From: Paramacrobiotus metropolitanus
Taxonomy: Eukaryota; Tardigrada; Eutardigrada; Parachela; Macrobiotidae
Assembly (NCBI RefSeq): GCF_019649055.1
Contig: NW_026570280.1
Span: 806,001-870,000 of the forward strand
Length of the DNA: 64,000 nucleotides
Direction: 5' to 3'
In this document: positions 29,800 through 59,837 of the stretch, piece by piece
Numbering within the stretch: the stretch's first letter is position 1
Layout of the letters: each line of letters opens with the position of its first letter
Translations under genes and position numbers: made by a program
Notes under the pieces: model-generated
What the model saw: only the letters and a program-made list of their open reading frames with translations
The model's database searches: none
Told to the model about the DNA's origin: nothing

Positions 29800-30259
29800 T
29801 GTCAGGCACATGAGCCTGTGCGTGGTGCGTACGGCTCAACATAGAGCGTACTTGCACTCACTTACATGCCATATTGCCTCTCTCGTGTACGTACGTGTGA
29901 CGCTGCACTGCACCCATCCACTGAAGTGGATATACCGCACAGCGCACACACTGAGCGTACTTGCTCTCTCGTCCCTCTTTCGCAGTACTACTCAGCGTTC
30001 ATACGCTCGCGTTGGGTAGAGTCCAGTCTGCGCATCACACAGCTGATTCACGTCTTGGCCCGCATCACCACGCACGTGTTTGCCGCCAGGATCACTTGAC
30101 ACTTACTCGCCAACGAGACGCATCAAGAACCTTTTGAGCATACACTTGCTATTTGGCCACACGTGCCTTTGTTCTTTTCTTCCTGCTATTACGCAGTATT
30201 GTCAGCCTTTATTGTCTAATAAAGACAGCATCGTGAGCTCCTCGCCATAGTCTGTTACA
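29800..30259 (+). repeat. 5' LTR (460 bp)
   Basis: By eye identical to 59378-59837. It starts TGTCAGGCACATGAGCC and ends GTCTGTTACA. The only obvious control signal is an AATAAA at 30218-30223 near its 3' end; I see no strong TATA box. Short open frames inside are not supported as genes. Confidence 0.97.
30207..30224 (+). promoter_or_regulatory. Poly(A) signal inside a hairpin (5' LTR)
   Basis: CTTTATT and AATAAAG form a perfect 7-bp stem around a GTCT loop, so the AATAAA is buried in the stem. The same structure is in the 3' LTR at 59785-59802. Retroviral poly(A) hairpins that mask the 5' signal are known from lentiviruses; that role here is inference. Confidence 0.6.
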
Positions 30260-30268
30260 TGGTAGCAG
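30260..30268 (+). promoter_or_regulatory. Primer-binding site, tRNA-Met type
   Basis: TGGTAGCAG starts directly after the LTR and matches the complement of the 3' end of animal initiator tRNA-Met (CUGCUACCA). The match runs nine bases and then diverges. Confidence 0.7.
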
Positions 30269-31546
30269 CATCTTTCTGGTTTTCCTTCCTACGGAATCTT
30301 TGAGGAGACGGTGAAGGCATCTTTTCGGAGAACTCGGGAGAACCTTTTCAGTCACTGTTTGAGACTGCTGAAGCAGCCTCTTCTTTGACTGTCGATCAAC
30401 AAACGGTCGCATCGTCTTACAGCTGCGGCGAAACGGAGATCACTGAAGTGATTTCTGCCCAGCTGGTGAGCCACGGTTTTCTTGTCTCTTCGACACTGAA
30501 GAGCACGCGTCCCGAACGCACGGACATTCTCTTTCCCAACTGACGGACCGGACTCGAACGAGAGTCCGCAGCGCGATAGGATTAACCCATTATACGGGGA
30601 CCATCGGTTTGAACACCGACCCGCAACTTTACTCGCGGAATTCCATCGAGAAACGACGGATTTCCGACCTCGGACGAAGTGCAACCGACCAGAACCGACA
30701 CCGACGCCGACACCGGTAAAGTCACGGTTTAGGTCGATTTTAGCCGTAACTAGGTCGGCTTTCAACTTTCTGACCGTAGAAAACTATTTCTAACGGTTAA
30801 ATTTTATTTTCTAACGGTGAAAAAGTAAATTTTGACGGAGAATCCGAACTCAAAACTTTACTTTTGGTCGAGAACCGACCTCCCAGGTCAACGTACCCAG
30901 TCTAACAAAGGCTAACCGACAACAGGTCGGACATTTTCCTCTTTTTGATTTCTAACGGCGTTTCAACCGCCAGAAAAATTTCTTAATTCCTAAAACTAAT
31001 TTCTAACGGATAAAAACCTAAAAATCCGACCAGATAAACCTTCTGGCCGAACTAAAAATAAATTAATTTTCGCGGAAAATAGCGCGAACTTCCTTGTGAC
31101 GTCATAACGACCGGATTTCAGTACTTAGAGGGCAGCCAATCAGCGTGCAGGGGAAAGTTCCCATAGTCTAACATAGGCGTGAATCATCATTTTTTAAACT
31201 TTTGCACGCGGCTCGCATTCTGTGACGTAGGCAGATAAGTGCAAGACCACTTAACCCTGTTACGTCATACTGGTCAGCACAGTAGTATAGGACGTACTAC
31301 ACCGTACTCTTATTACATACTGTACTGTACTATAGTACTGCATATTAACCCTGTGTACTGAGTCACCAACAGACACAACAACATCAACACCAACATCTCT
31401 CCGGACGTTCCTGACACTCGGAAGTTCCTGAACCTAAAGACGTCCCTGAACTCATCGAACATCTCTACACAAGAGATAGTTCGATCTGACATTCTCTGAG
31501 CAACAGATCTCTAAGGCTCCATCAGAGCCGACCTCATTCGACAACA
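30269..31546 (+). other. 5' untranslated leader of the element
   Basis: About 1.28 kb with no long open frame. It has several short hairpins: GGTCG-AGAAC-CGACC at 30866-30880, CCGAC-AACAG-GTCGG at 30916-30930, and the start-codon hairpin at 31537-31554. It probably holds the packaging signal and any 5' splice donor, but I cannot assign either. Confidence 0.7.
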
Positions 31547-31554
31547 ATGTCGAA
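31537..31554 (+). promoter_or_regulatory. Hairpin enclosing the Gag start codon
   Basis: TTCGACA and TGTCGAA form a perfect 7-bp stem around ACAA. The A of the AUG (31547) is the last loop base and UG are the first bases of the 3' strand. Confidence 0.7.
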
Positions 31555-34500
31555 CCCGAAGAAGGATATCTACGCCCGAGAGTTCAACACCGACTACTCG
31601 CGGCGTGCAACATCGACCGCGCCGTACTCACTTCGGCACTCCGGTCAAGAACGAAGTCAGCCGTCTTCAACCGACTCGACCAAGTCGGCGGAAGCAAGGG
31701 AGAAGCGTAACGAGCGGATCCTCCACGCGGACTCGAATCCAACATCGGATGACAGTTTCGAGGATGCCCGGGACAAAACGTTCCTGGAGGCCCACGCTGA
31801 CACAGCAGCCCCGTCCCACCCGACTGGGGGGGATGCGGAACAGCTGCAGGCGGAGACCACATTGTCTCACGCCGACCCTGTCTCGGTAACGGCTACACAG
31901 GCCACCGAGTTCGGACGCAAATCACCCAACTCAAAGGGTGAGCAACCGAAGTCGACCTCGTCCAACATTGGCGAAGCGGCTAAGGAGATCGGCTCCTGTC
32001 GTCCGACTTCGGAGATCGGCGAGGTCAAACAACGAAAATCGCCGACCTCTGAAGCCGGTCAACAGCAACTGATTAAGGAAGTCGACCAACGGAAGGTCGA
32101 CCAACCATCAACAAAGGAGTTCGGACAACAAAGTCCGATCACCGAAGCCAATCAACAGCAACCGGCCAAGGTCGGACAACAGAGTCCGATGTCCGGAGTC
32201 GACCAACGGAAGGTCGAACAGCCGACAACCGATGTCGGCAAAGTCCAACCGATCACACAGGTCGGAAGGACGTCACCAACCTCGAAGGTCGGTCAACAGC
32301 GACTGACCACGAAGGTCGGACAACAATGTCCGACCTCGGAGGCTGGTCAAAAGGAGGTCGGATACTCGAAGCCGACCAACCCACAACAACAACCAACCGA
32401 CAACAGGTCGGATATCGGAGTCCAGCCGACCAAACCCACGGTCAGAACGGAAGAATTCGAAGTGCCACCACGAAGTGGCCCCCACCCAGTTGGATCACCG
32501 ACTAACACACCGGCACCCAACGAACGGGTTACCTCACCGGTGAGTCGACCTCTACCAACAATGGATAAGTCGACCCGAACAACGGAGACTCAAACAAAAG
32601 GGAAGTCGACAACAAGCCGACCTGACAACCGGACAGCATTCCCTAAGTTCGCGGTCGGAGAGTCGGACAGCGAAACATCGTTGCCAACCGACGACGTCTT
32701 CGACCTAACGGGATCATTACCCAACAGCGGGGATGAATCCCTCCAGACGCCAGCCAAGTCCAACAAGGACACATACGACGCTGGTGTGCTGGAATACACC
32801 GCACGCAAGTGGACTTCGGCAACACCGCCGGAGAAGATCGAAGACATCAATGTGCTTCGACAACGATGTCACCAGCTGATCACACAGATCGGGCTGGCTG
32901 ACAAACTCGTTAACGCAGCGGAAGACTCAGGCGCAAGGTCGGAAGACACTCACCGCCTCGAACGGAGGAAATGGGAAGCTGACATGGCGGCCGCCAACAA
33001 AGGCATCGCCGACCAACAGCGTGAGATCGACCGGCTAAGAGCCTTCATAAAACGAGTTGAAGGACCATGTCGGTACGACACCGATGAAGTCACCAAACTT
33101 AACAACAAGTTGGATCAGGCAACACAGGCCGTCTCCGAACTGAAGAGACAACTCGCCGACGCGGAAAAGGAATTGGCCGACACACAAACGGCCTTGGTCG
33201 CCTCGGAACAAGCCGCGGGACATTTCCACGAAATGCTCAACCGAGCTAACGAAGAAGCGGAAGTGTACCGGAACGAAGTGGACCGGTACATAGTCGAACT
33301 ACGGCAGGCCGACAACGAGGTCGACCAGCTTCGACTATTAGCCGACCGACTCCAAACCGAGTTGGAAGTGCTAACGGCCAGGAGTCGACAACAGAGTCCG
33401 ACTTACCTTGGCCGCCAGCAACCCTCGCCGGAACACAGAACCATCATAGCCGACCTGCAAGACGCCAACACACAGTTGGTCGACCAAGTCTACGGCTTAA
33501 ATGAGTACCTCAAACAGGAGGAGAAACTCCGAGCCCAGCTGGAATACAACCTGGCCGAAGCTCACAAGGTGAACGAAGCGCAACGGAACCGCATCGTCTA
33601 CCTTGCAGCCCGTGAGAACGAACTGTTCGACTACGGGACCGAAGCCGCCAGCAACATTACGGAAATGATGCGGCAGATGGACGAGTTGGACACCGAGATC
33701 CGGTGCCTCCGGGAGGAAAAGAAGCACCTGGAACAAACCAGGGCCGACCCCCCATCCTACAGGACGTCCATGGCACAGGATTACCACCCGTCGCAAACAA
33801 TACGCGACATCCTGTGGGGCGATAATCCAGCCCAAGAACTGGGGAAGAAGGAGACGAACACCTCCTACTTCGTCGGAGTCGTAACAACCGACCCGTCTAC
33901 TGGAGCGCCTCCTCAGCCGAACCCGATACCGAGTCAGCCCGAGCCGGAACGTAACACGTCAACAGCGACGTCGTATGTTCCGACCTCGAACGTGCCGACT
34001 ACAACGGTAGCGACGGCCGGTGCGTATACGAGCACCTCCTTCTCGACGCGTACAACAATGCACGCGCCGATCCCCAACGCGTCCCACCCTGACAACAGCG
34101 ACGGAGCGGAAGCACCAAGGGGATTTCCATTTACCCGCCCACAACGACGGGTATTGGGAGAGCGAACGAACTCACACCCGGAAATGGGAAATTCGGATTG
34201 CCCGAACCAACGAGGGTTCGATTACGAGCGATCAAGGAGTCCGTCACATAACATGGCCGACCCGAGCGGACACTACGACCAACAGGAGCCGAACCGCCAT
34301 TCAAATGGCTACCCGGAACAAAGCCGGGCACCGCCACATCGACCAACGGAAAGTCGATTGCCGTCGAGAGGAACCCAACCCAACTTGTACGGCAGGGTTA
34401 ACGAACAACCCAGGGGATTTTACCCACCACCCCTAAGGACGATCCCGGCACCACAAGCGGGACCGGAGGCATACGGCGGCTACTCGGAACAACCGAGGCC

Positions 34501-36271
34501 ACGACAACCGACGTCACAGGCTCGGACGCCGCCCCCACAACAGTATGGAGGCAGGCCGGAACAGCCTCGTTACGCGAACCAGGTCCAGGCACCGCATCCG
34601 CAACAGGACGGATACGATGGCGAGTACGAACCGGCTCACCATCAGGCGGGCTATCCGAACCAACAAGGTCGGATACAATATGCCAATGCGGCACCTGCCC
34701 CGGTCGCACAACAGCCTGCGCCGGTGGCACAGCCAATTCCCCCGGAACAAGACCCAGCACACGTCGCCATCGTACGAGCGATGGCCCACGGAAGAAGGCA
34801 ACCCATGCCGGACTTCGACGGCGACCACACCAAACTTCATGGGTGGTTAAAACAAATCCGCAGCCTGCATCGGCAAGCCCAACAATGGTACGAAACCGAT
34901 CAGACTTTCATGGCCGACTTGATAGCTGAACTTAAGGGTCAAGCGGAGGAATGGCACATTCAAACTGCCGCCGAAGAACCGCTCGGAGGATGGCCAGTCA
35001 ACGTATGGCTGACCAAGTTCGAGGAACGGTTCGCGGACAAAAACAGGGAGGTGAACGCCATAGCACGGATGAACAAACGGACATTCCGTTTCGGCGAAGA
35101 AACACCGGAACAGTACTACGATGCCATGATGTTCATCAAATCCCAAGTCCGCACGATTACCGATGATATGGTATTATATCACCTTAAGGAGAATATCCAT
35201 GAGCCCCAACTGCGGGCGGCCCTGGAAATCAGGATGCCGACAACACCAGTCGAACTCCGAGACTACATACGGAGCTTCGTCAACGGCAAAGAAATGTACG
35301 AAGTAAGGAAGTCGCGCGACAGCGACCAAGTCCGAGTCCGAGTTGCAACACCCGCACCGGCTCTGGCTTTGCCGTCACCGATACCGCAACAGACCGTGTA
35401 TCAGCCGCATACGATGCCAGGATACCAAACCCCTACGGCACAGTTCGGACAACCGAGCCGAGCGGCGACGCCACCGATGCAACAAGCACCCGTCCAGCAA
35501 CCGACCTGGGCCGGAACGGTAGCGATGAACTTGAACCCACCCCCGGCACCTGGAACTGGAGCTCCCGTTAACAACTACGGAGGCGCAGGTTATAGCCCGG
35601 GTGGTAACCAAAACAACGCAGGTTTTGCCTACAACCAGAACTCTAACCAAGGGTACTCCGCATACGGCCAAGTTCCGACACAGGGATATGGCGGCGGAGG
35701 TTATGGACGCGGTAGAGGACGTGGCTTCGGGAATCGAGGCCGCGGTAACTTCTCCAACAAAGGAGGAGGAGGAAACCAACAAGGGAACCGGTCCCCCCAA
35801 GCACAACAGAGTGCTCGGCAAGCGGCAACATACGCCGATAAGATGGAACAACTGTTCCTCCAATGGACGCTAGCGAACAGCTTTACTTGCCACCTTTGCA
35901 AGTTTGGCAACCACGACCAGGCACGCTGCGCGTTCGCAGGCACTCGGGTGCAGGACAACCCGAACCGCCGATGGTACGAGGATTGGCATACACGATACCT
36001 GTCGGGAGCACCGGTAGGATCGGCCAACCAGAACTCGGCACAGATCGTGCCACCCCCGCGCCAACGCCAACAGGGGCGAGGCTCGGGTGGAGCTGGTAAC
36101 GGAAACCAGCAGGCCGGCTCAGGAAATGGGTCGGGGGGAAACCGCAGGAATAGCGGTGGGAGCCAACAAGGGTCTCCGGAACAGCGGCAACAGTTACCGC
36201 CACATCAGCCTTTTGGCGTGCCACAGTCCAACAATGGACCGGCTCGGGGGAACTCCCCGGGAAACGCCTAA
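31547..36271 (+). CDS. gag: Gag-like polyprotein, giant (1574 aa)
   Basis: Starts at an ATG in CAACAATG context. Residues 1 to about 430 are disordered, rich in Gln, Ser and Thr, with repeated VGQQSPTSE-like units at about 170-290. Residues 430-760 are predicted coiled coil with heptad Leu and many charged residues. A Pro/Gln/Tyr-rich stretch follows to about 1075. Residues 1079-1255 match a Ty3/Gypsy capsid-type domain (FDGDHTKLHGWLKQI, WLTKFEERFADK, ETPEQYYDAMM). A Gly/Asn-rich low-complexity region with RGRG motifs then leads to a CCHC zinc knuckle at C1448, C1451, H1456 and C1461 (C-x2-C-x4-H-x4-C). It should form the particle and bind the RNA. Ordinary Gypsy Gags have 300-500 residues, so about 1,070 residues of N-terminal extension are unusual. 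The next ORF lies in the -1 frame and overlaps its 3' end. Confidence 0.93.
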   Translation: MSNPKKDIYAREFNTDYSRRATSTAPYSLRHSGQERSQPSSTDSTKSAEAREKRNERILHADSNPTSDDSFEDARDKTFLEAHADTAAPSHPTGGDAEQLQAETTLSHADPVSVTATQATEFGRKSPNSKGEQPKSTSSNIGEAAKEIGSCRPTSEIGEVKQRKSPTSEAGQQQLIKEVDQRKVDQPSTKEFGQQSPITEANQQQPAKVGQQSPMSGVDQRKVEQPTTDVGKVQPITQVGRTSPTSKVGQQRLTTKVGQQCPTSEAGQKEVGYSKPTNPQQQPTDNRSDIGVQPTKPTVRTEEFEVPPRSGPHPVGSPTNTPAPNERVTSPVSRPLPTMDKSTRTTETQTKGKSTTSRPDNRTAFPKFAVGESDSETSLPTDDVFDLTGSLPNSGDESLQTPAKSNKDTYDAGVLEYTARKWTSATPPEKIEDINVLRQRCHQLITQIGLADKLVNAAEDSGARSEDTHRLERRKWEADMAAANKGIADQQREIDRLRAFIKRVEGPCRYDTDEVTKLNNKLDQATQAVSELKRQLADAEKELADTQTALVASEQAAGHFHEMLNRANEEAEVYRNEVDRYIVELRQADNEVDQLRLLADRLQTELEVLTARSRQQSPTYLGRQQPSPEHRTIIADLQDANTQLVDQVYGLNEYLKQEEKLRAQLEYNLAEAHKVNEAQRNRIVYLAARENELFDYGTEAASNITEMMRQMDELDTEIRCLREEKKHLEQTRADPPSYRTSMAQDYHPSQTIRDILWGDNPAQELGKKETNTSYFVGVVTTDPSTGAPPQPNPIPSQPEPERNTSTATSYVPTSNVPTTTVATAGAYTSTSFSTRTTMHAPIPNASHPDNSDGAEAPRGFPFTRPQRRVLGERTNSHPEMGNSDCPNQRGFDYERSRSPSHNMADPSGHYDQQEPNRHSNGYPEQSRAPPHRPTESRLPSRGTQPNLYGRVNEQPRGFYPPPLRTIPAPQAGPEAYGGYSEQPRPRQPTSQARTPPPQQYGGRPEQPRYANQVQAPHPQQDGYDGEYEPAHHQAGYPNQQGRIQYANAAPAPVAQQPAPVAQPIPPEQDPAHVAIVRAMAHGRRQPMPDFDGDHTKLHGWLKQIRSLHRQAQQWYETDQTFMADLIAELKGQAEEWHIQTAAEEPLGGWPVNVWLTKFEERFADKNREVNAIARMNKRTFRFGEETPEQYYDAMMFIKSQVRTITDDMVLYHLKENIHEPQLRAALEIRMPTTPVELRDYIRSFVNGKEMYEVRKSRDSDQVRVRVATPAPALALPSPIPQQTVYQPHTMPGYQTPTAQFGQPSRAATPPMQQAPVQQPTWAGTVAMNLNPPPAPGTGAPVNNYGGAGYSPGGNQNNAGFAYNQNSNQGYSAYGQVPTQGYGGGGYGRGRGRGFGNRGRGNFSNKGGGGNQQGNRSPQAQQSARQAATYADKMEQLFLQWTLANSFTCHLCKFGNHDQARCAFAGTRVQDNPNRRWYEDWHTRYLSGAPVGSANQNSAQIVPPPRQRQQGRGSGGAGNGNQQAGSGNGSGGNRRNSGGSQQGSPEQRQQLPPHQPFGVPQSNNGPARGNSPGNA
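32081..32411 (+). repeat. Cluster of short hairpins in gag
   Basis: Six stems lie within 330 bp: GTCGACC/GGTCGAC (32081-32101), TCGGAC/GTCCGA twice (32121-32138, 32172-32189), CCGACA/TGTCGG (32222-32238), AGGTCGGACA/TGTCCGACCT with an ACAA loop (32313-32336, 10 bp perfect), and CCGAC/GTCGG (32397-32411). Loops are A-rich, mostly starting AACA or ACA. The same DNA encodes the VGQQSPTSE-like protein repeats. Confidence 0.8.
36136..36142 (+). promoter_or_regulatory. Candidate -1 frameshift site (G_GGA_AAC)
   Basis: The heptamer GGGAAAC is in the correct register with the Gag codons (GGA AAC, codons 1531-1532). The -1 frame is open from 36100 and runs into the protease ORF. GGGAAAC is a standard X_XXY_YYZ slippery site used by retroviruses. 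A weak downstream stem (GCGGT with ACCGC, about 45 nt apart) is possible. Function is inferred. Confidence 0.6.
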
Positions 36272-36276
36272 GGTCG

Positions 36277-37770
36277 ATGAGCCCCGGTGACTCATTCGAC
36301 CTCCAACATCCCACCGAACCACCGGACAAGGATAACCCGACTAACCGAACTGACTTTAACCGGAACGAACCAACTTTTACTCCGTCACAAGAACGGATAT
36401 TAACGGTCCTAAACATACTGGGACTGGATGCCAACAGCACCGAAGAAGAATTCTTGATGGCACTTACAGCCCCAACACAGGAGGCAAGGACTGCTCGAAA
36501 CAAGGCAGCCCAACTCGGTATATTCGCCAACAATGACGGATTTGAGATCCGATTCGGAACGCAGGAAATGCCCGACCCAACCGACCCAGTGTATCAACTT
36601 GGCACTGGAACGTCGAAGGCCAGAACGCATGGATTGCCCGGATTGGCCGACCCAATGCCTCGACTTGGCACTGGAACGTCGGAGGTCGGAACGCAAGAAT
36701 TGCCCGACCTACGTGGAGCTAACACAGCATCCGCGCCGTCAGCCACACAAAGTGACGCTGAACGGACCGGCCACGGAAGTTGGACCGGATTGCCGGTGAT
36801 GAGAAACCCCACCGAGCAGCCCAGACGTGGCCCAAGACGCGGAGGACCGGGACGCAAATTCGCGCAGGGGGGCAACAGAAACTACCCCAATGTATCATCC
36901 GTATCCGGAACGGATAGATACGCTGCAACATTAGCAGCCATCGACCTCACCGAAGAACCGGGAGGATTCGAGGAATGGGAAACTGTCCCATTGGAAGCAC
37001 AAGTACCCGACTACTGTCTGCAGCAGGAACCGGACTTCTTCCAACCTCAGCCACGAAAAGTAACTGGCTCAAGAACGTTCCAGAATATCAAGTACATCCT
37101 ATCGACTGTAAGACCGACAGACGTCTCCACAGAAGAGTGGATACGGGAACAAGCACGACGGCTCGCAACTGCCAACGCACTGAAGGACGGAGTAGCTAAC
37201 CGACCCGAAGTACAAGAAGTGGTCACAGCCGAAGTGAGACGAACAGACGTCGACCCTGGACCAGTGTCCTTAATTCCCGTCAAACCGACAGTACGGGGAG
37301 TGACCTTCGAAAAAGGCACACATAAGAAACCGAAGACGGTCAGAGCCTGGACACATGAAATCCAGGTCGGATCCACACCCACAATGGCAATGTTGGATAC
37401 CGGAGCGGAGACTTCGCTCATCGAGAAACGATTTTGCGAGAGGAACGGATTGACAATGCAACCCCTCGGACATTACACCAAAATACTTGGTGTGGGCGGA
37501 CAAGTCGCCTTTATGGTCACTCACTGTTGTACAGCACCTGTAACAATGCAGGGCTTTACGAGTCACCACACTAGAGCCGACGAGTACGGTGCGATTAATT
37601 CGAAGTTCACCTTCATCTTAACACCGATCCCTAACCCGGAACCACCGGAAGGAACGACGGTAGTGCAGTCTCCCGATACCAGAGGCATCGTTGGAGCGAG
37701 CCAGCTTTCTCGACCAACGGACGTTAGAGTTAGTAGCGACTCTGCAACAGAACGGAGCAACGACACCTGA
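36277..37770 (+). CDS. pro: Retroviral-type aspartic protease ORF (497 aa)
   Basis: The frame is open from 36100, so its 5' end overlaps Gag by about 170 nt; the first ATG is at 36277, six bases after the Gag stop. The N-terminal 330 residues are unrecognised and rich in Thr, Pro and Gln, with two copies of an LGTGTS.{5-6}G-like segment near 106-138. The protease follows: catalytic D374 in LDTGAETSLIE, then ILGVGGQVAF and a late RGIVGASQL segment in place of the usual ILG box. Retropepsins act as dimers to mature Gag and Pol. Expression is probably by -1 frameshifting from Gag at 36136, or by reinitiation at the ATG. The ORF ends at TGA 37768-37770 and does not overlap the next ORF. Confidence 0.85.
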   Translation: MSPGDSFDLQHPTEPPDKDNPTNRTDFNRNEPTFTPSQERILTVLNILGLDANSTEEEFLMALTAPTQEARTARNKAAQLGIFANNDGFEIRFGTQEMPDPTDPVYQLGTGTSKARTHGLPGLADPMPRLGTGTSEVGTQELPDLRGANTASAPSATQSDAERTGHGSWTGLPVMRNPTEQPRRGPRRGGPGRKFAQGGNRNYPNVSSVSGTDRYAATLAAIDLTEEPGGFEEWETVPLEAQVPDYCLQQEPDFFQPQPRKVTGSRTFQNIKYILSTVRPTDVSTEEWIREQARRLATANALKDGVANRPEVQEVVTAEVRRTDVDPGPVSLIPVKPTVRGVTFEKGTHKKPKTVRAWTHEIQVGSTPTMAMLDTGAETSLIEKRFCERNGLTMQPLGHYTKILGVGGQVAFMVTHCCTAPVTMQGFTSHHTRADEYGAINSKFTFILTPIPNPEPPEGTTVVQSPDTRGIVGASQLSRPTDVRVSSDSATERSNDT

Positions 37771-37813
37771 CCAGATAAGTACAGCACAACGGTAGTGCGA
37801 ACCAATAATCGCC

Positions 37814-38879: not shown

Positions 38880-38896
38880 GTTGGCAACAATGCAAC
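38880..38896 (+). promoter_or_regulatory. Hairpin enclosing the Pol start codon
   Basis: GTTG(g)CA and TGCAAC pair around the loop ACAA with one bulged G. The AUG at 38890 takes the same loop/stem position as in the Gag hairpin. An outer CGTCG/CGACG pair is also possible. Confidence 0.55.
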
Positions 38897-43572: not shown

Positions 43573-43755
43573 GGCCATAGGAGAAAAACTTAAAATTTTC
43601 TAAGAACTTAACTTAGGTAGCTCAACAGTAGCTAGGTATGGACCTTTTGGTGTCGAAATGAAACCTCTTCAGTTGACCGGAACATCTTCAGTTGAATGTA
43701 CGGGAGTTGGTAGAATTCTAACGCGCCGTATTTAATCTCCTTAACAGCGAACAAC
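43573..43755 (+). promoter_or_regulatory. Pol-ORF4 spacer with splice-acceptor-like sequence
   Basis: A 183-bp spacer. Just before ORF4 are a branch-point-like TTCTAAC (A at 43721) and a pyrimidine-rich TTTAATCTCCTTAACAG with its AG at 43746-43747, eight bases before the ORF4 ATG. This is what a 3' splice site for a subgenomic mRNA would look like. The donor is not identified. Confidence 0.5.
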
Positions 43756-46215: not shown

Positions 46216-46413
46216 GACGGCCAGCCAACCGAAGCATGGAAAGCGATCCTCATTGGCAAACGAACCATCCAGAGCATTTACGAACATGCTTGGCCTGGAA
46301 GCCTTAACTTCACGTTTAATAAAATTAATGATCTCATAGCCAACATTGGCTTAATTGAAGATCTAACGAAGTCTGGCCTGCCCTCAACAAAGGAGGACAA
46401 GAGCCAACTTCGG

Positions 46414-52400: not shown

Positions 52401-53571
52401 GAGTCAGCCGAAGACAACAAAGTCGAAAAAGAAGCCGGTTAAGAAGAACGAACCGAAGTCATCCGAAGTGGTATCGTCATCGGAAGAATCACCCGAAGAC
52501 GATGACGAAGACGACGAGGACTTCCAAACACCTGGAAGCGGATCGCCGAAGGATGACGATGACAACGACGAGAACGGTAAACCACCACCGTCGGCTCCGG
52601 CACCTCAACAGCAGGGTGAACCGGAGATACCGGATAAACAACCGGAGTCCAAGGAGGAGAACGGAGACAAATCCGCCGATAACTCCAAGGACGACGACGG
52701 AGGAGTATACGTCCCTCGCCAATACGGTCATCGGATATCCGTGACACCGGACTCCGACCAACAGCTACTTCTTAGGGAATGGAACGAGGACACCCGGCAG
52801 GAATTGCCAAACGACATTCCCCCATTGGCTAACGTCAGGGTAAAATATACCGGCATTAAAAGCGCCCAAAAACCGAAGCCAAGCGTCTCGGAATACGACG
52901 CCGGATGGATGTATACATACGCCGCCCTGAAAGCCCTCGCAACCCGCGGACCGAAATTCGCCACACCGAAAATCGCACACAAACTTCTCCAACATTGGAA
53001 GGTGAATGAATGCGAATGGCGAGAACTAAGTATCGGCCTCGTCGGACGTTATTGCGACCTTGGATATTGGGGAGGAAAACTTATCCGGACGTACACCAGC
53101 ACAAAGCGGATGTACTACGAGTTCCCACCGGAGAAGAAAGATCCGGCCCCTTCAACATACGAAGGATGGATACACGCCATCGAAGCGTGTATGGAAATGT
53201 CATGGCATCCGGACGGGATGACGCGTGGTGAACTCTTGCACCAAATGACGGCACGATTCGAGTTCGCCTGGTTCGCCAAAGAGCCTCAACTGACGGATCC
53301 GAAGTACAAACCGAAGAGGGATTCGAAGAGGAAGGGCTACGACTTGGCCGAAGAATTGGAATGGGTCCTAACAAAAGGACTCTCTCAGAATCGATTCGCC
53401 TCAAGTACGGACTTTACGTCCCCAACCCAGCGGTTTGTAGCATGCAACCCGTCAACTCATCGGCATGGACATTTACCGAAGGAACGACCGGCCACGGAGC
53501 AACAGAACGAGTCGACCGACTCTCTCCAAGTGGACCGGCCGGAACCGACCGAAGCACCCACTCGGGAATAA
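46414..53571 (+). CDS. ORF5, giant accessory protein (2385 aa)
   Basis: The first in-frame ATG after the ORF4 stop is 46414, but the frame is open from 46216 and the 66 codons before the ATG also look coding (FNKINDLIANIGLIEDL-like). Residues 1 to about 950 continue the helical hairpin repeats of ORF4 with PTTQAV (near 41), TTTQAV (near 137) and PTTTAV linkers. Residues 950-1640 are disordered, with alternating basic and acidic low-complexity segments and possible nuclear localisation signals. Residues 1648-1903 form a predicted mainly helical globular domain (MRVIAWTLDFGLAVAVHRQWG). Residues 1950-2080 are Lys/Asp/Glu-rich. A second globular domain covers 2099-2330 (WMYTYAALKALATRG, WRELSIGLVGRYCDLGYWG). 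I recognise no family. The length and persistence of the frame with element-like codon use show it is maintained. Confidence 0.75.
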   Translation: MAIHRIDIAGWSEKFPTFSTEGSEATPGDIRTSPISTPPLPTTQAVNGAQSSDSQMSNAERVRRLAELKREREDVITRSNDTRGWMSTLPTGDNHPQQFQALLDQYKQLYNRHSDLDRLIQSEEQKVHLDIALTPATTTQAVTLTTLASDAVIVQGRIAIQEAEDILKRIQERATRGLEPNVRKLTEEFTAHIQLVRNLIQPGMVEPGVHSQLVQNGINSLRDFSRNQRRPQDFDRMSPVTLPSTSSASEMYATMRKIRRERMRSVISDGWDLLEDLQRLYIKKTPTDAEAIKAAQQKIDNLMAYMKKAEDLLGKNEPTDVEERQLRSTVERITEILGAEPEYTRIKTPSPPRRPAPTTTAVMTLVGTTPMDNILGNMEVICRAGQDLAEIFNHRLNETLPKSERTNLIEDDRDLRIELDYADAIGSWGIPGPGPNQDRLVEALQSILDHVKQHLANPTRQAPPTEAAPSPVPTPGMDIELPFVDNAVDQQEVDFAKVEDEYREAVDVMEKLSQQLRNLDPTQDFEKRMQKAVEEQYNICSRRAEDLWKILEANPQRVKPTSTSTQPQSTSTEQPVQPTLAEQRQVLDQKLARAQQIAAGLQRQVDGMDGTEPTIRNIRTAIEDQLRISQMHVQDLEAEIDMLRRQGVQHRTPASQHPTSSTQPTSTSAQVQSQPNSTASSTQRKPVDTVDRPMSPATEARIMEAIPDTDVLPDTVAPHIVKLLARVTELTTKMRARRNFCEENSQQAHDLDRDILARGNNARFIRRLCHPDAPQTANTRQHLIRTTAWLKMRVRDYEEEKEKDKQTPTTSLATEAMAIGRPSRTKQTQSTRKPNFDSVRLPPPPAQQPVNIDSEMLARIQGTLKRADEVIIELRQMMDATDQRSPQYLQIDINLGHLENNAKEIRFILRPTTVWSAKNQERLMLLVATIDSFIEDFDKRKEAEEQRRKAKQPPSAKKAKVQRSPPRSTNSAETNPPADQDDPMDDAPLPPLENEPEAMDTSELPKRKPKPLVRPTTLLGLPQREPKSDGRLTLQPKGQGSPKPVRKPKTTDNIEEHGPRRRLFPSKSPPPVRTKEQLLELMKAAPTLPPAEEKADQSQEPAVIGTKALFTPAVHKKLVRQAKTLDLQRILYEAQRQGGIRDRTMTDDQQTQLAERIHATAQERDKILRRLVVVRCGKQELRQIPLDATIIKSIQLLRRPRIHPAAYTLEIEPRPGQQVTEKISTVMSDSSEAEECEDDFGSDDSMQQQAASKPKGSTPRRSRSPVKQISPNRAASQPTRMPSQPTLEQPRRFTPRNTPTKPKETQEEMDTTSPSEAKTGLPVGTSPQRDELISVHSGPRLTIDETDRTEESKIRPTKRSIEKEVPPQDESREFHDDLALQHVKDLTRSEQDVCVDMAFPEDRELWNMLWNRRTNLVGNTTAVRREHDRLTQKMAEVMKRMGDNYRAEKSRPKALQEPTQAQQKTTASTPKPKTTSQLVVKMKVPQPTRAPSVQIDDDPALDARVIHSANATRPSRKDKRKAKKEAAKQVATPKPAEKAKETTKPKSDPTVKTPKPNPAKRHKSSDDLDISDAGPQRTERKEKPAEPHDAEADARRFQELMKAAGTKPTKPKPSASEEPKPSTSKQSDVESEQLSDIEDKDSISDHGNGDPYEGFKGDLKEIFEHGADTDESQWPAPDDIRQRLPDEQPDDPVDIVIRTVRVHVEVVRSIENAKTNGMDIYQSLVRDLSTNIEVDGQAGTWLTHQFMMRVIAWTLDFGLAVAVHRQWGRMAELLPPDVIKSLKSSTGKNSDDIPTRIVRCIGYIRNPRGSTLVQIARVYNVMYMNKKGNIDEIINNILTDHVASMVEENTLQTTNAERGVPLRYTVPGFIPEQQRREFNLRMSYVNTDELPKGTETAVEEYSEADEQPSGEAADMLQIARSAGLSSQKRIQARPRPRAPHEPVTYINTASAPTGRASIAKQTRSAKGRFVAKDVQSLPPPSPMELSPEPEDLTQRKSQPKTTKSKKKPVKKNEPKSSEVVSSSEESPEDDDEDDEDFQTPGSGSPKDDDDNDENGKPPPSAPAPQQQGEPEIPDKQPESKEENGDKSADNSKDDDGGVYVPRQYGHRISVTPDSDQQLLLREWNEDTRQELPNDIPPLANVRVKYTGIKSAQKPKPSVSEYDAGWMYTYAALKALATRGPKFATPKIAHKLLQHWKVNECEWRELSIGLVGRYCDLGYWGGKLIRTYTSTKRMYYEFPPEKKDPAPSTYEGWIHAIEACMEMSWHPDGMTRGELLHQMTARFEFAWFAKEPQLTDPKYKPKRDSKRKGYDLAEELEWVLTKGLSQNRFASSTDFTSPTQRFVACNPSTHRHGHLPKERPATEQQNESTDSLQVDRPEPTEAPTRE
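46528..46556 (+). repeat. Hairpin CCGTTG...ACACA...CAACGG
   Basis: Outer 6-bp stem around the constant CGACC-ACACA-GGCCG core, encoding the PTTQAV linker in ORF5. Confidence 0.8.
46817..46845 (+). repeat. Hairpin CAGCG...ACACA...CGCTG
   Basis: The same core as at 46528, but both outer stem strands differ and still pair. The repeat spacing is 289 bp. Confidence 0.8.
48069..48092 (+). repeat. Hairpin GGCTAACCC-ACAAA-GGGTTaAGCC
   Basis: A 9-bp stem with one bulged A on the CC-ACAAA-GG core, in ORF5. Confidence 0.85.
49467..49495 (+). repeat. Hairpin ACTTGGG...CCCAAGT
   Basis: A 7-bp outer stem plus CTC/GAG inner pairing around a CCACAAA loop, in ORF5. Confidence 0.7.
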
Positions 53572-53848
53572 GGAGACGCAGAAAGCGTCGGAGGAGTCGC
53601 AGAATCGACCTCCTCCATAAAACACCACAAAGGTGTTAACCGACCAACAGAAGTCGACCTACCTCATTCGGCCAACAGAAGTTGAATAGGCGCCACACAG
53701 ACGCCTTGTACCAGCTCGAGAACCGACCTGGCCCGACCGTAGCAATTATAGGGTGTAAAACTTATAGGACGCAACCAACAATGGTTTGCTTAACTTTCAC
53801 TTTGACAGACGCGTACGGAGCCCTACACAAGGGAATGCTCACAGTGTA
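53572..53848 (+). other. ORF5-ORF6 spacer with hairpins and a mini-ORF
   Basis: Contains the perfect hairpin AACACC-ACAAA-GGTGTT (53621-53637). A 22-codon mini-ORF starts at ATG 53781, itself within a GCAACC-AACAAT-GGTTtGC hairpin (53771-53789). The mini-ORF ends at TAA 53847-53849, which overlaps the ORF6 ATG as TAATG, an arrangement known for termination-reinitiation. Confidence 0.6.
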
Positions 53849-55996
53849 ATGCCAGCGCGACACGGGACAACAACCGACTCCCCTTGCGCGCAGTGCATCA
53901 TTTCCTTCACCAATGAACGGACCGAACTGATCGGACTACAGCCAAGAGCTCAGGCAGCGGCACTATACATTAACGTCGTCGCTGGAAACCTGAGTGCATA
54001 CCGCTACCTGGCCGGACGAGAATCCTTGGTGGACCAGTTAGAAGCACACGAACAGGACAATCTGGCCACCATCCAACGCCAACGAAGCGCGGACCCGAGA
54101 TGGGAAGGAACTCGACCCCCAGTCTTAACAGATAGACTGTGGGAATACCGTCAAATCCAGGACGTGAAGCGGCAAATGGCGGATCAGAAGAAAATTAAGG
54201 AGGTGGATCGGAAGATTGCAACAATGCAAGTCCATCCACCACCGACCTCTTATGAACCGGAGATAAAAGTTCGACTTCCAGCACCCACACAGGGTCGCTC
54301 GGAAGCCGACCAGCTGATTCACAACATACGTGATGTCTTCGTCGGAGATCCTCAACGACCATTGAAGGATGCTTCGGTCAAATGGATGATGAACATGCCG
54401 GACGGAACTCAACAGATGGTTACTCTTACACCGGCGACGGAGGAGCAGTTGACGGCAGTCCAACAAAGGGCTATGCCAGTAGTCACACAGGCTCGGCCAA
54501 CTGTTCCCCAGCAAATTCCTCAACCTGGAACGTCAACTCGAACGATGGCTCCACCGACGACTCAACAGCAGTCACGTCGACCAGCCAGAGATCTCGCCGG
54601 ACACGACCTCCGACATCGGATCGGCCAAGATGCTCGACACAAAATCGAGGAACAACGGGCCGTTATCCGAAGTGCTGGTAAGGAACCAACCAGACCTCCA
54701 CCAGGAAAACGAACTGGATCCGGAGAAACCGGAATTGGACTGGTGATCGACTCAACGAGGAAGTCGAAGAGAAACTTGGCACCGACCGAACAGCAACCGG
54801 ATGCCCACATGGCAGAACCGGCGGCCGAAGTGGAAGTCGAAGCACAACATGATGCTCAACCGGACCAGATGGATGTCGAAGTGGCCGACCAGATGGCACA
54901 ACTACCCGAAGTTGAAGTGCCAGCTCGAGAAGACCCTCGGTACGACCTTGCCAGACAACAGGCAATAGAAGTCGTCATGCCACACCCAACCGAACGGACG
55001 AATCATAGCATGAACACCATGGATTATGAGGAACGACATCGCCCACAAGTGTGGCGGATGGTGGAGAATCTACGACAGTTCCTCGTCCGATCCGGATACC
55101 AGACATTGGTCGAACAACAACAATGGAAACCGGACTTCAATATGGACGCTCACACCAACGAGAATGTGGAACATCCGTACACCAGAGCGAACGCCTTACC
55201 GTCGATGACCGACCCGAACTTGCTGAATGTACCGTTGTACAGTCCGGACTGGACACGTGCAAGTCAACTCGGGGCTCGCGAATACGCGCACGACGAGCTG
55301 GAAGGTATGGCCCAGTTCTTCATCACTGACGCCCACCCGGCCTTTGTCATCACCGCAGCACGAGCAGCATTGGACTTAGTCCAATATCTCCCAGAAGGGG
55401 AGGTCGACTTGGCTCCTGACGGTGTTACGGCATTCCTGCGATACATCTTCGCAGCGAGAATCGGCAATTACTTCTGCCATTACACCTTGTACGGACTGTA
55501 CCAGAACCAGCAGATACCAGCCGAACTCCAAACCATCGTAGCCCAACTTGGCACTCCGATGCGGAGCAGCATTCAAGCCGTCTGGTTGCGAGACCTGCTC
55601 TACACCCACGAACGTTACGCGGTGAAGTATGGTTTCAGCGAGGACTACATCGATCCTTGCGACGATGCAACCAGGTTCATCAGCTGGTACAGAGAACACA
55701 AAGTTCTCCCCAGCGGATTCACGTCACACCCATACGAACCATGGATGTCAGACGCTTTGGCACCTGGCGCACAACCGTACGCGCTGAAGCTTCGGAAGCA
55801 AGCGGCCAAGGACAAGAAGACCCGAACCGAACGTTCAGGCCAGGAAACGGATGAGACAGACGATACGTCTCAACGGAGTGGCCCGGCGACATGTAAACCG
55901 TCGTCGTTACGACCACACCACCGGTATCGCCCTGACGACGACCACGAAGATGACTATTTCGGCGGCGACCCGCCGATCAACGTCGAACTCGGATAA
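53849..55996 (+). CDS. ORF6, accessory protein (715 aa from the first ATG)
   Basis: The frame is open from about 53786, but the first ATG is 53849, overlapping the mini-ORF stop. An N-terminal block (CAQCIISFTNERTELIGLQ) is followed by a helical region to about residue 150. A disordered middle is rich in Thr, Gln and Pro, with acidic EVEVEAQHDAQPDQMDVE. The C-terminal domain of about 280 residues (VWRMVENLRQFLVRSGYQ, AAARAALDLVQYLPEG-like, YIDPCDDATRFISWYREH) is rich in Trp and Tyr and predicted helical. A basic tail and an acidic D/E-rich end follow. No homolog recognised, and no membrane segment, so there is no support for an envelope protein. It could be a further structural or RNA-binding protein. 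Stop TAA 55994-55996 is followed at once by a strong hairpin. Confidence 0.75.
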   Translation: MPARHGTTTDSPCAQCIISFTNERTELIGLQPRAQAAALYINVVAGNLSAYRYLAGRESLVDQLEAHEQDNLATIQRQRSADPRWEGTRPPVLTDRLWEYRQIQDVKRQMADQKKIKEVDRKIATMQVHPPPTSYEPEIKVRLPAPTQGRSEADQLIHNIRDVFVGDPQRPLKDASVKWMMNMPDGTQQMVTLTPATEEQLTAVQQRAMPVVTQARPTVPQQIPQPGTSTRTMAPPTTQQQSRRPARDLAGHDLRHRIGQDARHKIEEQRAVIRSAGKEPTRPPPGKRTGSGETGIGLVIDSTRKSKRNLAPTEQQPDAHMAEPAAEVEVEAQHDAQPDQMDVEVADQMAQLPEVEVPAREDPRYDLARQQAIEVVMPHPTERTNHSMNTMDYEERHRPQVWRMVENLRQFLVRSGYQTLVEQQQWKPDFNMDAHTNENVEHPYTRANALPSMTDPNLLNVPLYSPDWTRASQLGAREYAHDELEGMAQFFITDAHPAFVITAARAALDLVQYLPEGEVDLAPDGVTAFLRYIFAARIGNYFCHYTLYGLYQNQQIPAELQTIVAQLGTPMRSSIQAVWLRDLLYTHERYAVKYGFSEDYIDPCDDATRFISWYREHKVLPSGFTSHPYEPWMSDALAPGAQPYALKLRKQAAKDKKTRTERSGQETDETDDTSQRSGPATCKPSSLRPHHRYRPDDDHEDDYFGGDPPINVELG
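54275..54305 (+). repeat. Hairpin CTTCC...ACCC-ACACA-GGGT...GGAAG
   Basis: Two-tier stem on the CC-ACACA-GG core inside ORF6. Confidence 0.7.
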
Positions 55997-56024
55997 GATC
56001 AGGTTCCCACATTGGAACCTGATC
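55997..56024 (+). terminator. Strong hairpin directly after the ORF6 stop
   Basis: GATCAGGTTCC and GGAACCTGATC form a perfect 11-bp stem around CACATT, beginning at the base after the ORF6 stop codon. It is the longest perfect stem found in the element. A role in translation termination, RNA stability or processing is inference. Confidence 0.7.
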
Positions 56025-56054
56025 CCCCACGTGGAACATCCGAGGGGATTGAAC

Positions 56055-56073
56055 ATCGACCACAAAGGCCGAT
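56055..56073 (+). repeat. Hairpin ATCGaCC-ACAAA-GGcCGAT
   Basis: Non-coding copy of the CC-ACAAA-GG hairpin with the usual A/C mismatch. Confidence 0.8.
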
Positions 56074-56156
56074 TATGGTCGAGAACCGACCTGACTGAAA
56101 AACAGTCCTGCTGAGAAACAGCATAGTCGAGAAACGACTCCGGAATGGATACCTTT

Positions 56157-56176
56157 TTCTTTTGTTTCTCTTACAG
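56157..56176 (+). promoter_or_regulatory. Splice-acceptor-like sequence before ORF7
   Basis: A long pyrimidine tract (TTTCTTTTGTTTCTCTTACAG) ends in AG at 56175-56176, 14 bases before an ATG in strong Kozak context (ACCATGG). Confidence 0.5.
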
Positions 56177-56189
56177 AAACCGACCAACC

Positions 56190-56570
56190 ATGGTAACAGC
56201 GGAAGTCAACAACGACTACGCCGGATTCTTCGGTCTGACTCGGAAACGCGTGGTAAGACCTGGGTACTTCGGTTCTTTCACCGTACCGGTACGTCCCCCG
56301 AGGAATCCCCTGGAAAGAACTGAACAACCGACTTCAGTTCCCCAGCTTGGCATGAACAGATTGGAACCACGTCTGCTAACAACAGCATATCGTGAGCCAC
56401 GTTCTGCTACCATCGGAGCCAACAGAAGCCCCAATCCGCGTTACATGGAACGAAGATTACTCCGGCCAACCGACTCCGGAGCACAGACCGAGAGGATTAC
56501 GCTAACATGGTGTAGAACACGTCGCTGCGCGCTCTTCGTCATGTTTGCCGAGCACCCGTGGCCAACCTAG
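56190..56570 (+). CDS. ORF7, small basic protein (126 aa)
   Basis: Begins at ATG 56190 in ACCATGG context after the acceptor-like tract; the frame also has an upstream ATG at 56145. The product starts MVTAEVNNDYAGFFGLTRKR and is rich in Arg, Pro and Thr. It has no signal peptide or membrane segment, and no homolog is recognised. Its base composition follows the element. If real it is probably made from a spliced mRNA. It could also be non-coding leader sequence that happens to be open. Confidence 0.4.
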   Translation: MVTAEVNNDYAGFFGLTRKRVVRPGYFGSFTVPVRPPRNPLERTEQPTSVPQLGMNRLEPRLLTTAYREPRSATIGANRSPNPRYMERRLLRPTDSGAQTERITLTWCRTRRCALFVMFAEHPWPT

Positions 56571-56672
56571 GAACCGGGTAAGCCGACCAGCAACCTTCAC
56601 CATAGGTAACAGCGGACATCCTCAGCGGGACTGCCAACAGGGCAGAGTGATCAACCCCGATCACTGGAAACT

Positions 56673-56695
56673 AGGTCGACCACAAAGGCCGACCT
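56673..56695 (+). repeat. Hairpin AGGTCGaCC-ACAAA-GGcCGACCT
   Basis: Same core and mismatch as 56055-56073, but with AGGTCG/CGACCT in place of ATCG/CGAT. Confidence 0.85.
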
Positions 56696-57477
56696 TGTTC
56701 CCCGCAGTAACTTTACAATTTTCGTCGAACGCAACTATGACACTCGTCGAACCCGACGATCCGGAACGGACCCCACGAAAAGCGGTCTGTCAGCGGATCG
56801 GCGAGGGACACTCCCCGCTCCGCTGGCAGACCACTCCGGCGAAAAGACTCCGGAGAACGGACCGCAGACCGCGGATAGAACCACGATATGGTATCTCGGA
56901 AAGTCTGCAACAACGCAGACCGCTGAACCACGACCAGAACGGATCGGACAGGGGAGCATAAACGAAGACGCAGACCGCGCCAAGGATCACGATGGCCAAG
57001 TCGTACCGGATTCTCCGCTGAACCCAGAGCTACAGACTCTGTACCTGGAGTCCAACCGACGTCTCCCCCGGAGGATATCGGACATAACCGCCGATTCACC
57101 GGTGACCACGACTACGCGCGCCTCGAACGTGCTGCCATTACCTGAAGAGGAACAACGACGGTGATTCGGCTACCAGTGTACCGACGACTCCGCCGCCAAC
57201 CTGCTTCCCCATGTCCTCAATGGAACATCCTAGGCAGATCGCGTTAGAACACACGACCTGCACCCCTTGACGAACACCGAGAACGGAGATCATCTGCCCG
57301 CAACAGTGCCGGCCAGATGTTCTGCGTCATCGGCAAAGGAATTCAGTGGACTTCGGACACCTACCCCCAACTGACGCGGCTAGGCGTCCCTGGTTCGCAA
57401 CTAAAGAAAACGAAGAATCGGATCTGATACGACCTCAGGAACTGCATGTGCATGACGAATTTAAACCAAAGAGGATG

Positions 57478-57504
57478 GTGAAAAGAGACCACAAAGGCTC
57501 TTCA
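57478..57504 (+). repeat. Hairpin GTGAA-AGAG...ACAAA...CTCTTCAC
   Basis: Stem of about 8 bp with a bulged A on each tier, on the CC-ACAAA-GG core. Confidence 0.7.
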
Positions 57505-58102
57505 CCGCCATCCGGAAGTATGATGCATGAGGAAGTACTAGTCACTTGGCCAACAGATGCCATGGTAACATACCATTGCTCAACATGGAGCGGGACTCGG
57601 ACGCCCAGAGGCACTTCACTTCAGTCGACTAACCGGAGGACGCGCCGGAACTCGGACCCGTCCGGAGATACCTTACTCGGACCGACCAACAGAAGTCCGG
57701 ATCCGACCCAGAGTCAGGAGCGCAGCCGCAGAAGAACGGAGTTGCGATGCCGAATATCCTTCTGCCAGTCCGAACTGACCGAAGGATGTCCGAACACAAG
57801 GGACCCAGTCAACTGTGGCTGGAAGTACGGAACATCCGAGAGTAAGTTAACTTGACGAGTGCCGACTAGCCCCACATTGGGCGTAACGGTATAAGTCGTT
57901 TTAACCGACCTCGAACTGGAGGTCGGAAGTGACCAAACGGAGGTCGGATAGATGCGACAACAGCATCGGAACAGTAACTAAAACTTCGAAATCGACCTCC
58001 CAGCGGAAGAATTCAACCTTAGGACGGATGGAAACACACTTCATCCGACCTCGGGACGTCGGACATACCCGACCCGGGGATATCCGACCTCACGTCGGAT
58101 CA

Positions 58103-58130
58103 GTTAGCCGACCAACATTGGTCGACTAAC
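58103..58130 (+). repeat. Hairpin GTTAGcCGACC-AACATT-GGTCGaCTAAC
   Basis: Ten base pairs with one internal mismatch, of the AACATT loop class. Confidence 0.85.
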
Positions 58131-58555
58131 TCAGTCAAATAGGACGGAAAAAGACGGATAACTACCTCGCGATGGACGAATCCAACTAAGGTCGACCATC
58201 GATGGATGGAATATCCGACCTCGAGTCGCACAACATTGTGACCGACTACAGGTCGGATAACAACGGAACACACCGAATCGCATGACCGAACGGAGGTCGG
58301 AAATGCACGACAACAAGTCGACCAAGCAATCAGAGGTCGGACATCGATCTCCAAACGGAAGAATTCAACTTTCCGACGGTCGGGTAGCAACAACATGCAT
58401 CGGATGGAAGTCAACCGGACACTCCCACCGAAGATACCGAGGATTTCCGACCGGACCTTCGAGCCAGTTCGCATCGGATAACTTCATAACCAGGCTCGTG
58501 GTAGCAGATTTAACGGTTTACCCGACCACTTGTGAACGGAACTGCTGTACTTGAC

Positions 58556-58570
58556 GACCACAAAGGTCGC
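58556..58570 (+). repeat. Hairpin CGACC-ACAAA-GGTCG
   Basis: Perfect 5-bp stem on the recurrent core. Confidence 0.75.
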
Positions 58571-59139
58571 ATGACTTGAGTATAGCTTTGTCCGACCTGG
58601 ACTTCGGAGTTCGGAACTTAGCCGGATTCCCATACTGCCGATCGACTCATCGGTAGTCCGACCTTGGTCAACCGACCTCGGTCTAACTTCCCCATTCAGA
58701 GAGGATGCTTCGGCATTTGCAACTGCAACGGTGCCTCTTTCTTCCCAACGGACGGATACGAGTCGGAAGTAAGTGTTAACCATGCTTATCCGACCTCGGT
58801 GATTTTAGCCGGTTACGACGGGTAACCCGGGAACCGACGCCCCGGACCCAACTTACCGGACAACATTGGACAGGAGACCCCGTGGCAACTCAAGCACCCC
58901 GTGGACGTCATCCTAGTCGGAATAGGACCCCCGGACAGATTTTTGTATTTTTTTTAGAATTCTTTCCTAACAAACGGAATTGTATTTTTATAGTTTGGTC
59001 TCTTTGACAGATCTGTTTTTGTAACCCTTTTGCTCACTGGAATTGTGAATAAAACTTTATTTTTCTTTCGCGCTGTATAACTTTCATTACATTTTTCATT
59101 GTTCTCCGATGCCAACAGAAGCAAGAAGCCAGCCAACAG

Positions 59140-59391
59140 ATGCATCACCGGCCCAACGAAACGCACGAGCAACTTCCGGATTTCTCGGCCGTGAGCTGCT
59201 TGCCTCTCACGGGTTCGGAAGTGGATGAAGGGACGGTCAACCGGACACCGGACTCCCAGCTGCCAGAGGACGCGTACCGGCGACCCCACACTGGGTCCAA
59301 CCGGAGAGTTGTGCAGTACTGGTGCGGTACTGAGTCGGAGCATCCTTCGCGGGAGCTCGGATTCCCGCCCAGAGGCATGTCAGGCACATGA
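59140..59391 (+). CDS. Possible small ORF8 running into the 3' LTR (83 aa)
   Basis: An ATG-started frame (MHHRPNETHEQLPDF...) covers the last 240 bp before the LTR and ends 14 bases inside it. An acceptor-like CTCCGATGCCAACAG lies about 20 bases upstream. No domain recognised. It may be chance, although its GC-rich composition contrasts with the AT-rich stretch just before it. Confidence 0.25.
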   Translation: MHHRPNETHEQLPDFSAVSCLPLTGSEVDEGTVNRTPDSQLPEDAYRRPHTGSNRRVVQYWCGTESEHPSRELGFPPRGMSGT

Positions 59392-59837
59392 GCCTGTGCG
59401 TGGTGCGTACGGCTCAACATAGAGCGTACTTGCACTCACTTACATGCCATATTGCCTCTCTCGTGTACGTACGTGTGACGCTGCACTGCACCCATCCACT
59501 GAAGTGGATATACCGCACAGCGCACACACTGAGCGTACTTGCTCTCTCGTCCCTCTTTCGCAGTACTACTCAGCGTTCATACGCTCGCGTTGGGTAGAGT
59601 CCAGTCTGCGCATCACACAGCTGATTCACGTCTTGGCCCGCATCACCACGCACGTGTTTGCCGCCAGGATCACTTGACACTTACTCGCCAACGAGACGCA
59701 TCAAGAACCTTTTGAGCATACACTTGCTATTTGGCCACACGTGCCTTTGTTCTTTTCTTCCTGCTATTACGCAGTATTGTCAGCCTTTATTGTCTAATAA
59801 AGACAGCATCGTGAGCTCCTCGCCATAGTCTGTTACA
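59378..59837 (+). repeat. 3' LTR (460 bp)
   Basis: By eye identical to the 5' LTR. The preceding bases (CCAGAGGCA) contain only a five-purine run, so there is no convincing polypurine tract. GTAC follows as the target duplication. Confidence 0.97.
59785..59802 (+). promoter_or_regulatory. Poly(A) signal inside a hairpin (3' LTR)
   Basis: Same CTTTATT/AATAAAG stem as in the 5' LTR. This copy should direct 3'-end formation of the element's transcripts. Confidence 0.65.

Follow-up and report, generated by a model that had tools for sequence, protein, structure and literature searches.

How does a reverse-transcribing element keep, export and package an RNA of three times the normal length? The question is raised by a retrotransposon of 30,038 bp in the 169.8-Mb genome of the tardigrade Paramacrobiotus metropolitanus, and the family to which it belongs bears on the answer. 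The element, bounded by long terminal repeats (LTRs), spans positions 29800–59837 of a 64,000-nucleotide stretch on contig C60, referred to here as the window. An earlier, sequence-only reading described it as a complete and very young Gypsy-type element with an extra open reading frame (ORF) ahead of Pol and four separate ORFs, totalling more than 4,000 codons, behind it. A young-looking giant Ty3/Gypsy insertion it is indeed, but it is not complete, Pol and both accessory genes being broken with respect to relatives, and the downstream ORFs that begin with ATG number three (ORF4, ORF5 and ORF6; 819 + 2,385 + 715 = 3,919 codons). Comparison with other copies leads us to read these three not as separate genes but as two, ORF-A and ORF-B, linked by splicing; the link was missed earlier because the alternative intron is not visible from the window copy alone. 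We hold this layout of genes and splicing in the family with high confidence.

Two accessory genes and the intron that links them

ORF-A (43756–53571, plus strand) comprises the former ORF4 and ORF5 and has about 3,270 codons. In the window copy an in-frame stop interrupts it where ORF4 meets ORF5; this stop is absent from all three of the copies compared (C41, C3 and C1b). Programmed readthrough of this stop was considered and rejected, since the same three copies do not have it. A single open frame of 3,009–3,302 codons is found in six copies (C41, C478, C3:2475800, C23, C69 and C73), and an NCBI protein of 2,979 amino acids (aa), P0122, covers both ORF4 and ORF5. The second exon of ORF-B (53809–55996, plus strand) is the former ORF6, and its N-terminus carries a Cx2C…Cx2C motif. 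Here the window copy has a frame break near the start that none of the 17 other copies aligned there shares. Between the splice acceptor and the first cysteine pair there is no in-frame ATG in any of nine aligned unspliced copies, despite which the protein sequence is conserved there, as Cx2C…Cx2C. As read from these alignments, ORF-B lacks an independent start codon and is spliced onto the first 51 codons of ORF-A (43756–43908, plus strand), which are common to both genes and are followed by the donor CAG|GTAGAA.

The alternative intron (43909–53808, plus strand; GT…AG) is 9,900 nt long and holds all of ORF-A beyond those 51 codons. It is exactly absent from the genomic DNA of five copies (C152, C176, C163, C68 and C46), which carry the joined exons and span at least three subfamilies. 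The same junction is found in the NCBI model P0001 (copy C99), where ORF4's first residues are followed by ORF6 exactly from the acceptor; in the genomic DNA of C99 the acceptor is present, but the sequence ahead of it is different. All 18 copies that align at the acceptor have ACAG there, preceded by a T-rich stretch, and all three that align at the donor have CAG|GTAGA. Spacing between the reverse transcriptase (RT) and ORF-B was compared in 52 pairs among the matches listed and lies at 14.3–15.6 kb in 35 of them. Four (C46, C176, C163 and C180) have spacings of 5,163–5,180 nt, where the window layout less 9,900 nt predicts 5,161. The remaining 13 pairs have other spacings, among them C68, intronless by sequence at 5,379, and C19, which has deletions, as well as C42 and C37. 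The RT of the intronless copies is 98% (C176), 96% (C46), 94% (C163) and 87% (C68) identical to that of the window; C152 is not among the RT loci listed, and the LTR matches around it are 19.3 kb apart. An intron that is precisely gone while Pol is kept is the mark of a spliced RNA that was reverse-transcribed and integrated. Thus, in this family a spliced RNA carrying gag-pol went through both steps, and because an RNA lacking ORF-A could do so, ORF-A is dispensable in cis.

Upstream of both genes lies a second, conserved 3′ splice site (43708–43747, plus strand), of predicted use, with a branch-like TTCTAAC, a pyrimidine tract and an AG whose end lies 8 nt upstream of the shared ATG. Over its 40 nt both C3 and C1b keep 97% identity, against an average of 70–84% across their coding genes, and the site can also be recognised in C163, C46 and the distant copy C68. 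A candidate donor in the leader, GTGAGC (30466–30471, plus strand), is likewise a prediction; the GGTGAG that contains its start is conserved in five of five aligned copies. Since both the acceptor and the leader donor are conserved, a splice from 30466 to the acceptor at 43708–43747 is likely. One relative, C19, had been suspected of being a leader-spliced copy from its 17-kb LTR spacing and was rejected, the shortening being due to internal deletions.

Neither gene matched any Pfam model, and a PDB profile search with ORF-B found nothing. Searches of 5.8 billion proteins, limited to those of comparable length with exact words in common, returned one match in one case and two in the other, all from P. 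metropolitanus and none from outside the species, in agreement with the earlier statement that the accessory ORFs have no recognised homologs. The suggestion that the gene set is undescribed also stands: a literature search, with preprints and most subscription journals outside its coverage, found no description of it and no paper on giant LTR elements in tardigrades. Of the tardigrade papers retrieved, PMC11071193 treats Hypsibius and Ramazzottius and does not name Paramacrobiotus in the part of its text available, and the available part of PMC11191345 contains no word beginning with “transpos”.

Copies, divergence and selection

A search for further copies, which the sequence-only reading had proposed as a check, located the accessory genes in many other copies at matching spacing. 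RT–RNase H has at least 105 scored loci (the best 105 of 1,686 candidates), which by identity fall into 54 at 95% or above, 16 at 90–94% and 35 at 83–87%. The central 153 aa of Gag give at least 150 scored genomic matches (the best 150 of 663 candidates), and the conserved domains of ORF-A and ORF-B have at least about 150 each; for the last 223 residues of ORF-A these are the best 150 of 267 candidates. ORF-B itself was scored at 62 loci or more (64 matches, 674 candidates). No in-frame stop is present in 48 of the 62, which, with the six copies in which ORF-A is open, bears out the expectation that the frames would prove to be maintained. ORF-B is also found at 44–46% identity in distant copies. 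Two copies, C3 and C1b, carry the full order Gag–protease–ORF3–Pol–ORF4–ORF5–ORF6.

Among the matches listed, 52 RT/ORF-A pairs lie within 20 kb on the same strand (one RT locus being counted twice), and the remaining RT loci have no ORF-A partner there. In 40 pairs an RT of at least 92% identity accompanies an ORF-A of 58–100%, and in the other 12 an RT of 83–87% accompanies an ORF-A of 32–46%. Because the two identities move together, ORF-A predates the split of the subfamilies.

The ratio of non-synonymous to synonymous divergence (dN/dS) was computed for each gene, each copy being set against the window copy. It is 0.10–0.23 for ORF6 (19 of 19 copies), 0.12–0.23 for ORF5 (15 of 15) and 0.12–0.31 for ORF4 (three of three). 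Pol gives 0.18 in C3, 0.25 in C1b and C152, and 0.70 over a 239-codon tail in C41; in C1 its synonymous sites are saturated and yield no value. On these ratios ORF-A and ORF-B are under purifying selection across subfamilies. The genes of one copy have not always diverged to the same extent: in C69 synonymous divergence is 0.41 for RT vs 0.98 for ORF6, which mosaic elements or constraint could explain. On contig C1 (1703000–1733083) a distant, decayed Pol (56.5% identity, 10 stops) stands beside open ORF5-tail and ORF6 frames, and this mosaic hints at recombination between subfamilies.

The 17-kb relative C19:1209097–1226114, with its internal deletions, has LTRs identical at 460 of 460 positions and, by eye, a TGCC duplication; deleted members of the family seem, from such a copy, to have been recently mobile as well. 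The LTRs of C3 differ at 7 of 449 positions and are flanked by a duplication, read by eye, of ATAT. For C1b no target-site duplication could be found by eye.

The element and its surroundings

The LTRs (29800–30259 and 59378–59837, plus strand) are 460 bp long with TG…CA ends and match at 460 of 460 positions, and the 4-bp target-site duplication GTAC occupies 29796–29799 and 59838–59841; both had been called correctly from the sequence. Together with the order RT–RNase H–integrase, the TG…CA LTRs and the short duplication place the element in Ty3/Gypsy. The window copy is probably a recent insertion, broken as assembled, and some of its breaks could be errors of assembly. A TGG follows immediately on the 5′ LTR, within a candidate primer-binding site, TGGTAGCAGCATC (30260–30272, plus strand), which abuts the LTR and which we take to resemble the 3′ end of the initiator tRNA-Met. 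At 59350–59377, just upstream of the 3′ LTR, where a polypurine tract was looked for, the sequence is conserved yet has no clear purine run; a conserved end resembling GATTCCCGCCCAGAGGCA stands in its place and is seen in C3 and C1b. This sequence closes a 3.4-kb 3′ region (55997–59377, plus strand) with no long ATG ORF, in which the blocks 59080–59139 and 59260–59299 retain at least 95% identity in C3 and C1b. An Rfam search gave no match. The sense strand of the element (32001–58000) has an excess of A over T, the skew being +0.24 to +0.40 per 2 kb, and a GC content of 51–58% vs 39–46% in the flanks.

Gag (31547–36271, plus strand) has 1,574 codons and, by eye, a CCHC knuckle; no Pfam gag model scored above cut-off. 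Within its overlap with Pol, in the Gag frame, is the heptamer G_GGA_AAC (36259–36265, plus strand), preserved in C3 and changed in C1b, and Pol is predicted to be made by −1 frameshifting at this site. The supposed extra ORF before Pol turns out to belong to Pol. It encodes an aspartic protease (36277–37770, plus strand) with the motif DTGA, above the Pfam cut-off for Asp_protease_2 (PF13650), and is followed by the acidic segment ORF3 (37883–38737, plus strand), out of frame in the window copy, and by RT, RNase H and integrase (38890–43572, plus strand), all above their Pfam cut-offs. In the window these parts lie in switching frames. C3, in contrast, has a single frame of 1,240 codons from the protease ORF through into RT, and C19, which carries ~285 nt at the protease–ORF3 border that the window copy does not have, is open across that border in one frame, although its frame breaks further along. 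Because of the continuous frame in C3 and the read-through border in C19, we treat the protease ORF, ORF3 and Pol as one gene; in copies spanning the protease-to-integrase length its frames are open for up to 2,626 codons. The best PDB match of Pol is Ty3 (7q5b, E = 3.5e-86). A tree built from 29 RT rows sets the element apart, together with four P. metropolitanus proteins, in a separate, long-stemmed clade that could be assigned to no known Gypsy clade. Two stretches before RT (38890–39900) resemble a dUTPase-like domain by eye and have no Pfam match; in other Gypsy elements such a domain sits between protease and RT.

Two further features lie in the window outside the element. On the minus strand, 5870–8004 holds an ORF of 476 codons in which Pfam recognises a reverse transcriptase domain (PF00078, E = 1.8e-33) and, adjoining it, a 226-codon ORF with no real Pfam match; this is another retroelement fragment. 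At 26264–26874, ~611 bp of nested inverted repeats with 92-nt arms, 91% complementary, resemble a miniature inverted-repeat transposon.

Possible roles and known systems

What might two such genes do? In the mechanism we propose, Gag would pass into Pol by the −1 frameshift at G_GGA_AAC, and a splice from the leader donor to the acceptor at 43708–43747 would give an RNA for ORF-A and ORF-B. A single start codon on this RNA would then serve either an ORF-A of ~3,300 residues, if the 9.9-kb intron is retained, or an ORF-B of 780 residues, if it is removed. ORF-B, with its splice-shared N-terminus and four-cysteine finger-like motif, would act in the nucleus, regulating or exporting unspliced RNA, and ORF-A, with helical-hairpin units, would serve the RNA or the particle as a scaffold. 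A profile of the helical unit finds four plausible matches in the window's ORF4/ORF5 and five in P0122, with none in shuffled and reversed controls; these counts are rough because the profile was built on only five seeds, one of them disordered. The N-terminal half of ORF-A has a few degenerate units. To our knowledge, ORF-A may rank among the largest accessory proteins of any retroelement.

That the family carries splice-linked ORF-A and ORF-B which act in the export and packaging of its long RNA is, taken as a whole, the statement that we favour, with moderate confidence. Several observations weigh against it. Splicing is known here from genomic DNA copies and one gene model, and no genomic copy proves the leader-to-ORF-A splice. 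The junctions in C68 (442 kb) and C163 show the intron to be optional for the mobility of the copied RNA. In-frame stops occur in 14 of the 62 ORF6 loci, 53 of the 105 RT loci have no ORF-B partner among the matches listed, and structure models of ORF-B and the ORF-A tail are poor (mean predicted local distance difference test scores of 36.7 and 30.1). The parallel drawn below between ORF-B and CERV is one of layout and motif. A CERV-like role for ORF-B may be a little short of an even chance, and the scaffold role for ORF-A is more tentative. Equally tentative is the widest version of the proposal, in which this would be a new class of giant retroelement: a single intron would decide whether a helical scaffold of 3,300 residues or a cysteine-finger regulator is made, the pair having evolved for the export and packaging of a 30-kb RNA.

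Of the other explanations, the one that survives best, though we think it improbable, is that ORF-A and ORF-B are directed at host chromatin or defence, in targeting or in escape from silencing, rather than at the element's own RNA. The basic and acidic tracts and Cys4-like motif seen by eye would fit nucleic-acid binding, and there are no relatives of either protein by which to judge; on the other hand, nothing ties them to any host pathway, and the three duplications read (GTAC, TGCC and ATAT) reveal no common target site. Somewhat less probable is an env-like role, the accessory genes being structural proteins of an infectious particle and the element a giant endogenous retrovirus. Like env, the genes lie downstream of Pol and would be expressed via a 3′ splice site, but no ORF of the element has a membrane-spanning stretch (the highest 19-residue hydropathy is 1.38) and none matches a Pfam env model. 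Given its helical-hairpin units and the lack of a membrane segment, ORF-A fits a scaffold better than an envelope. The broken window copy and the poor structure predictions might suggest that ORF-A and ORF-B are non-coding, or captured sequence decaying without function; frames open for more than 3,000 codons and dN/dS of 0.10–0.31 across subfamilies make this very improbable. Least probable of all is a chance insertion or an assembly chimera confined to the window copy, the case named earlier as fatal to the original claim, for although no homologs were found outside the species, C3 and C1b share the gene order, purifying selection is seen, and tens of other loci carry the accessory genes at the same spacing.

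The family has kept two accessory genes under selection through several subfamilies, and its natural intron-loss copies prove one splice junction. With both in hand, how a giant retroelement RNA is committed to splicing or to export becomes testable in an animal. If the proposal is true, the two-protein system lifts the usual size limit of retroelements, given as ~10 kb in the passages available from PMC6431247.

Known systems share parts of this arrangement. Ty3 has the same protease–RT–RNase H–integrase Pol and is the top PDB match (7q5b); that polyprotein has no accessory genes, and Ty3 is far smaller than the tardigrade element. In the Bet protein of foamy viruses, a different virus group with far smaller genes, an N-terminus from one accessory frame is fused by splicing to a second frame. 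Among giant elements, Burro of planarians is Gypsy-like, exceeds 30 kb and has LTRs, with a single ORF1 of 4,873 aa that carries BIR, BCL2-like, ankyrin and env-like motifs (PMC6431247, in the part available). The tardigrade element resembles it in size class, LTRs and accessory coding far beyond gag-pol; it differs in having four genes, a splice switch and 460-bp LTRs, and no Pfam match to the BIR, BCL2, ankyrin or env-like motifs was found in it. Ogre, a giant Ty3/Gypsy element of plants, owes its size largely to LTRs of 1.9–6.5 kb around an internal region of 11–13 kb, and the available text of the same source and of PMC12786077 describes a functional intron and alternative splicing, as here. 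Unlike Ogre, the tardigrade element has no kilobase-long LTRs, only 460-bp ones, and whereas the Ogre intron is in gag-pol, the tardigrade intron lies 3′ of Pol and holds most of a 3,300-codon gene. The nearest parallel to ORF-B is CERV of Caenorhabditis elegans, which, in the portion of PMC10309623 available, is made from spliced Cer1 RNA, has N-terminal exons in common with gag, contains a cysteine finger, and is needed if unspliced Cer1 RNA is to be exported. CERV is 517 aa long, its shared exons are those of gag, and Cer1 has no giant ORF-A. Both elements are nevertheless Gypsy/Ty3-related, and ORF-B, like CERV, is an extra protein with a cysteine finger whose N-terminal exon, common to another frame, is joined to it by splicing.

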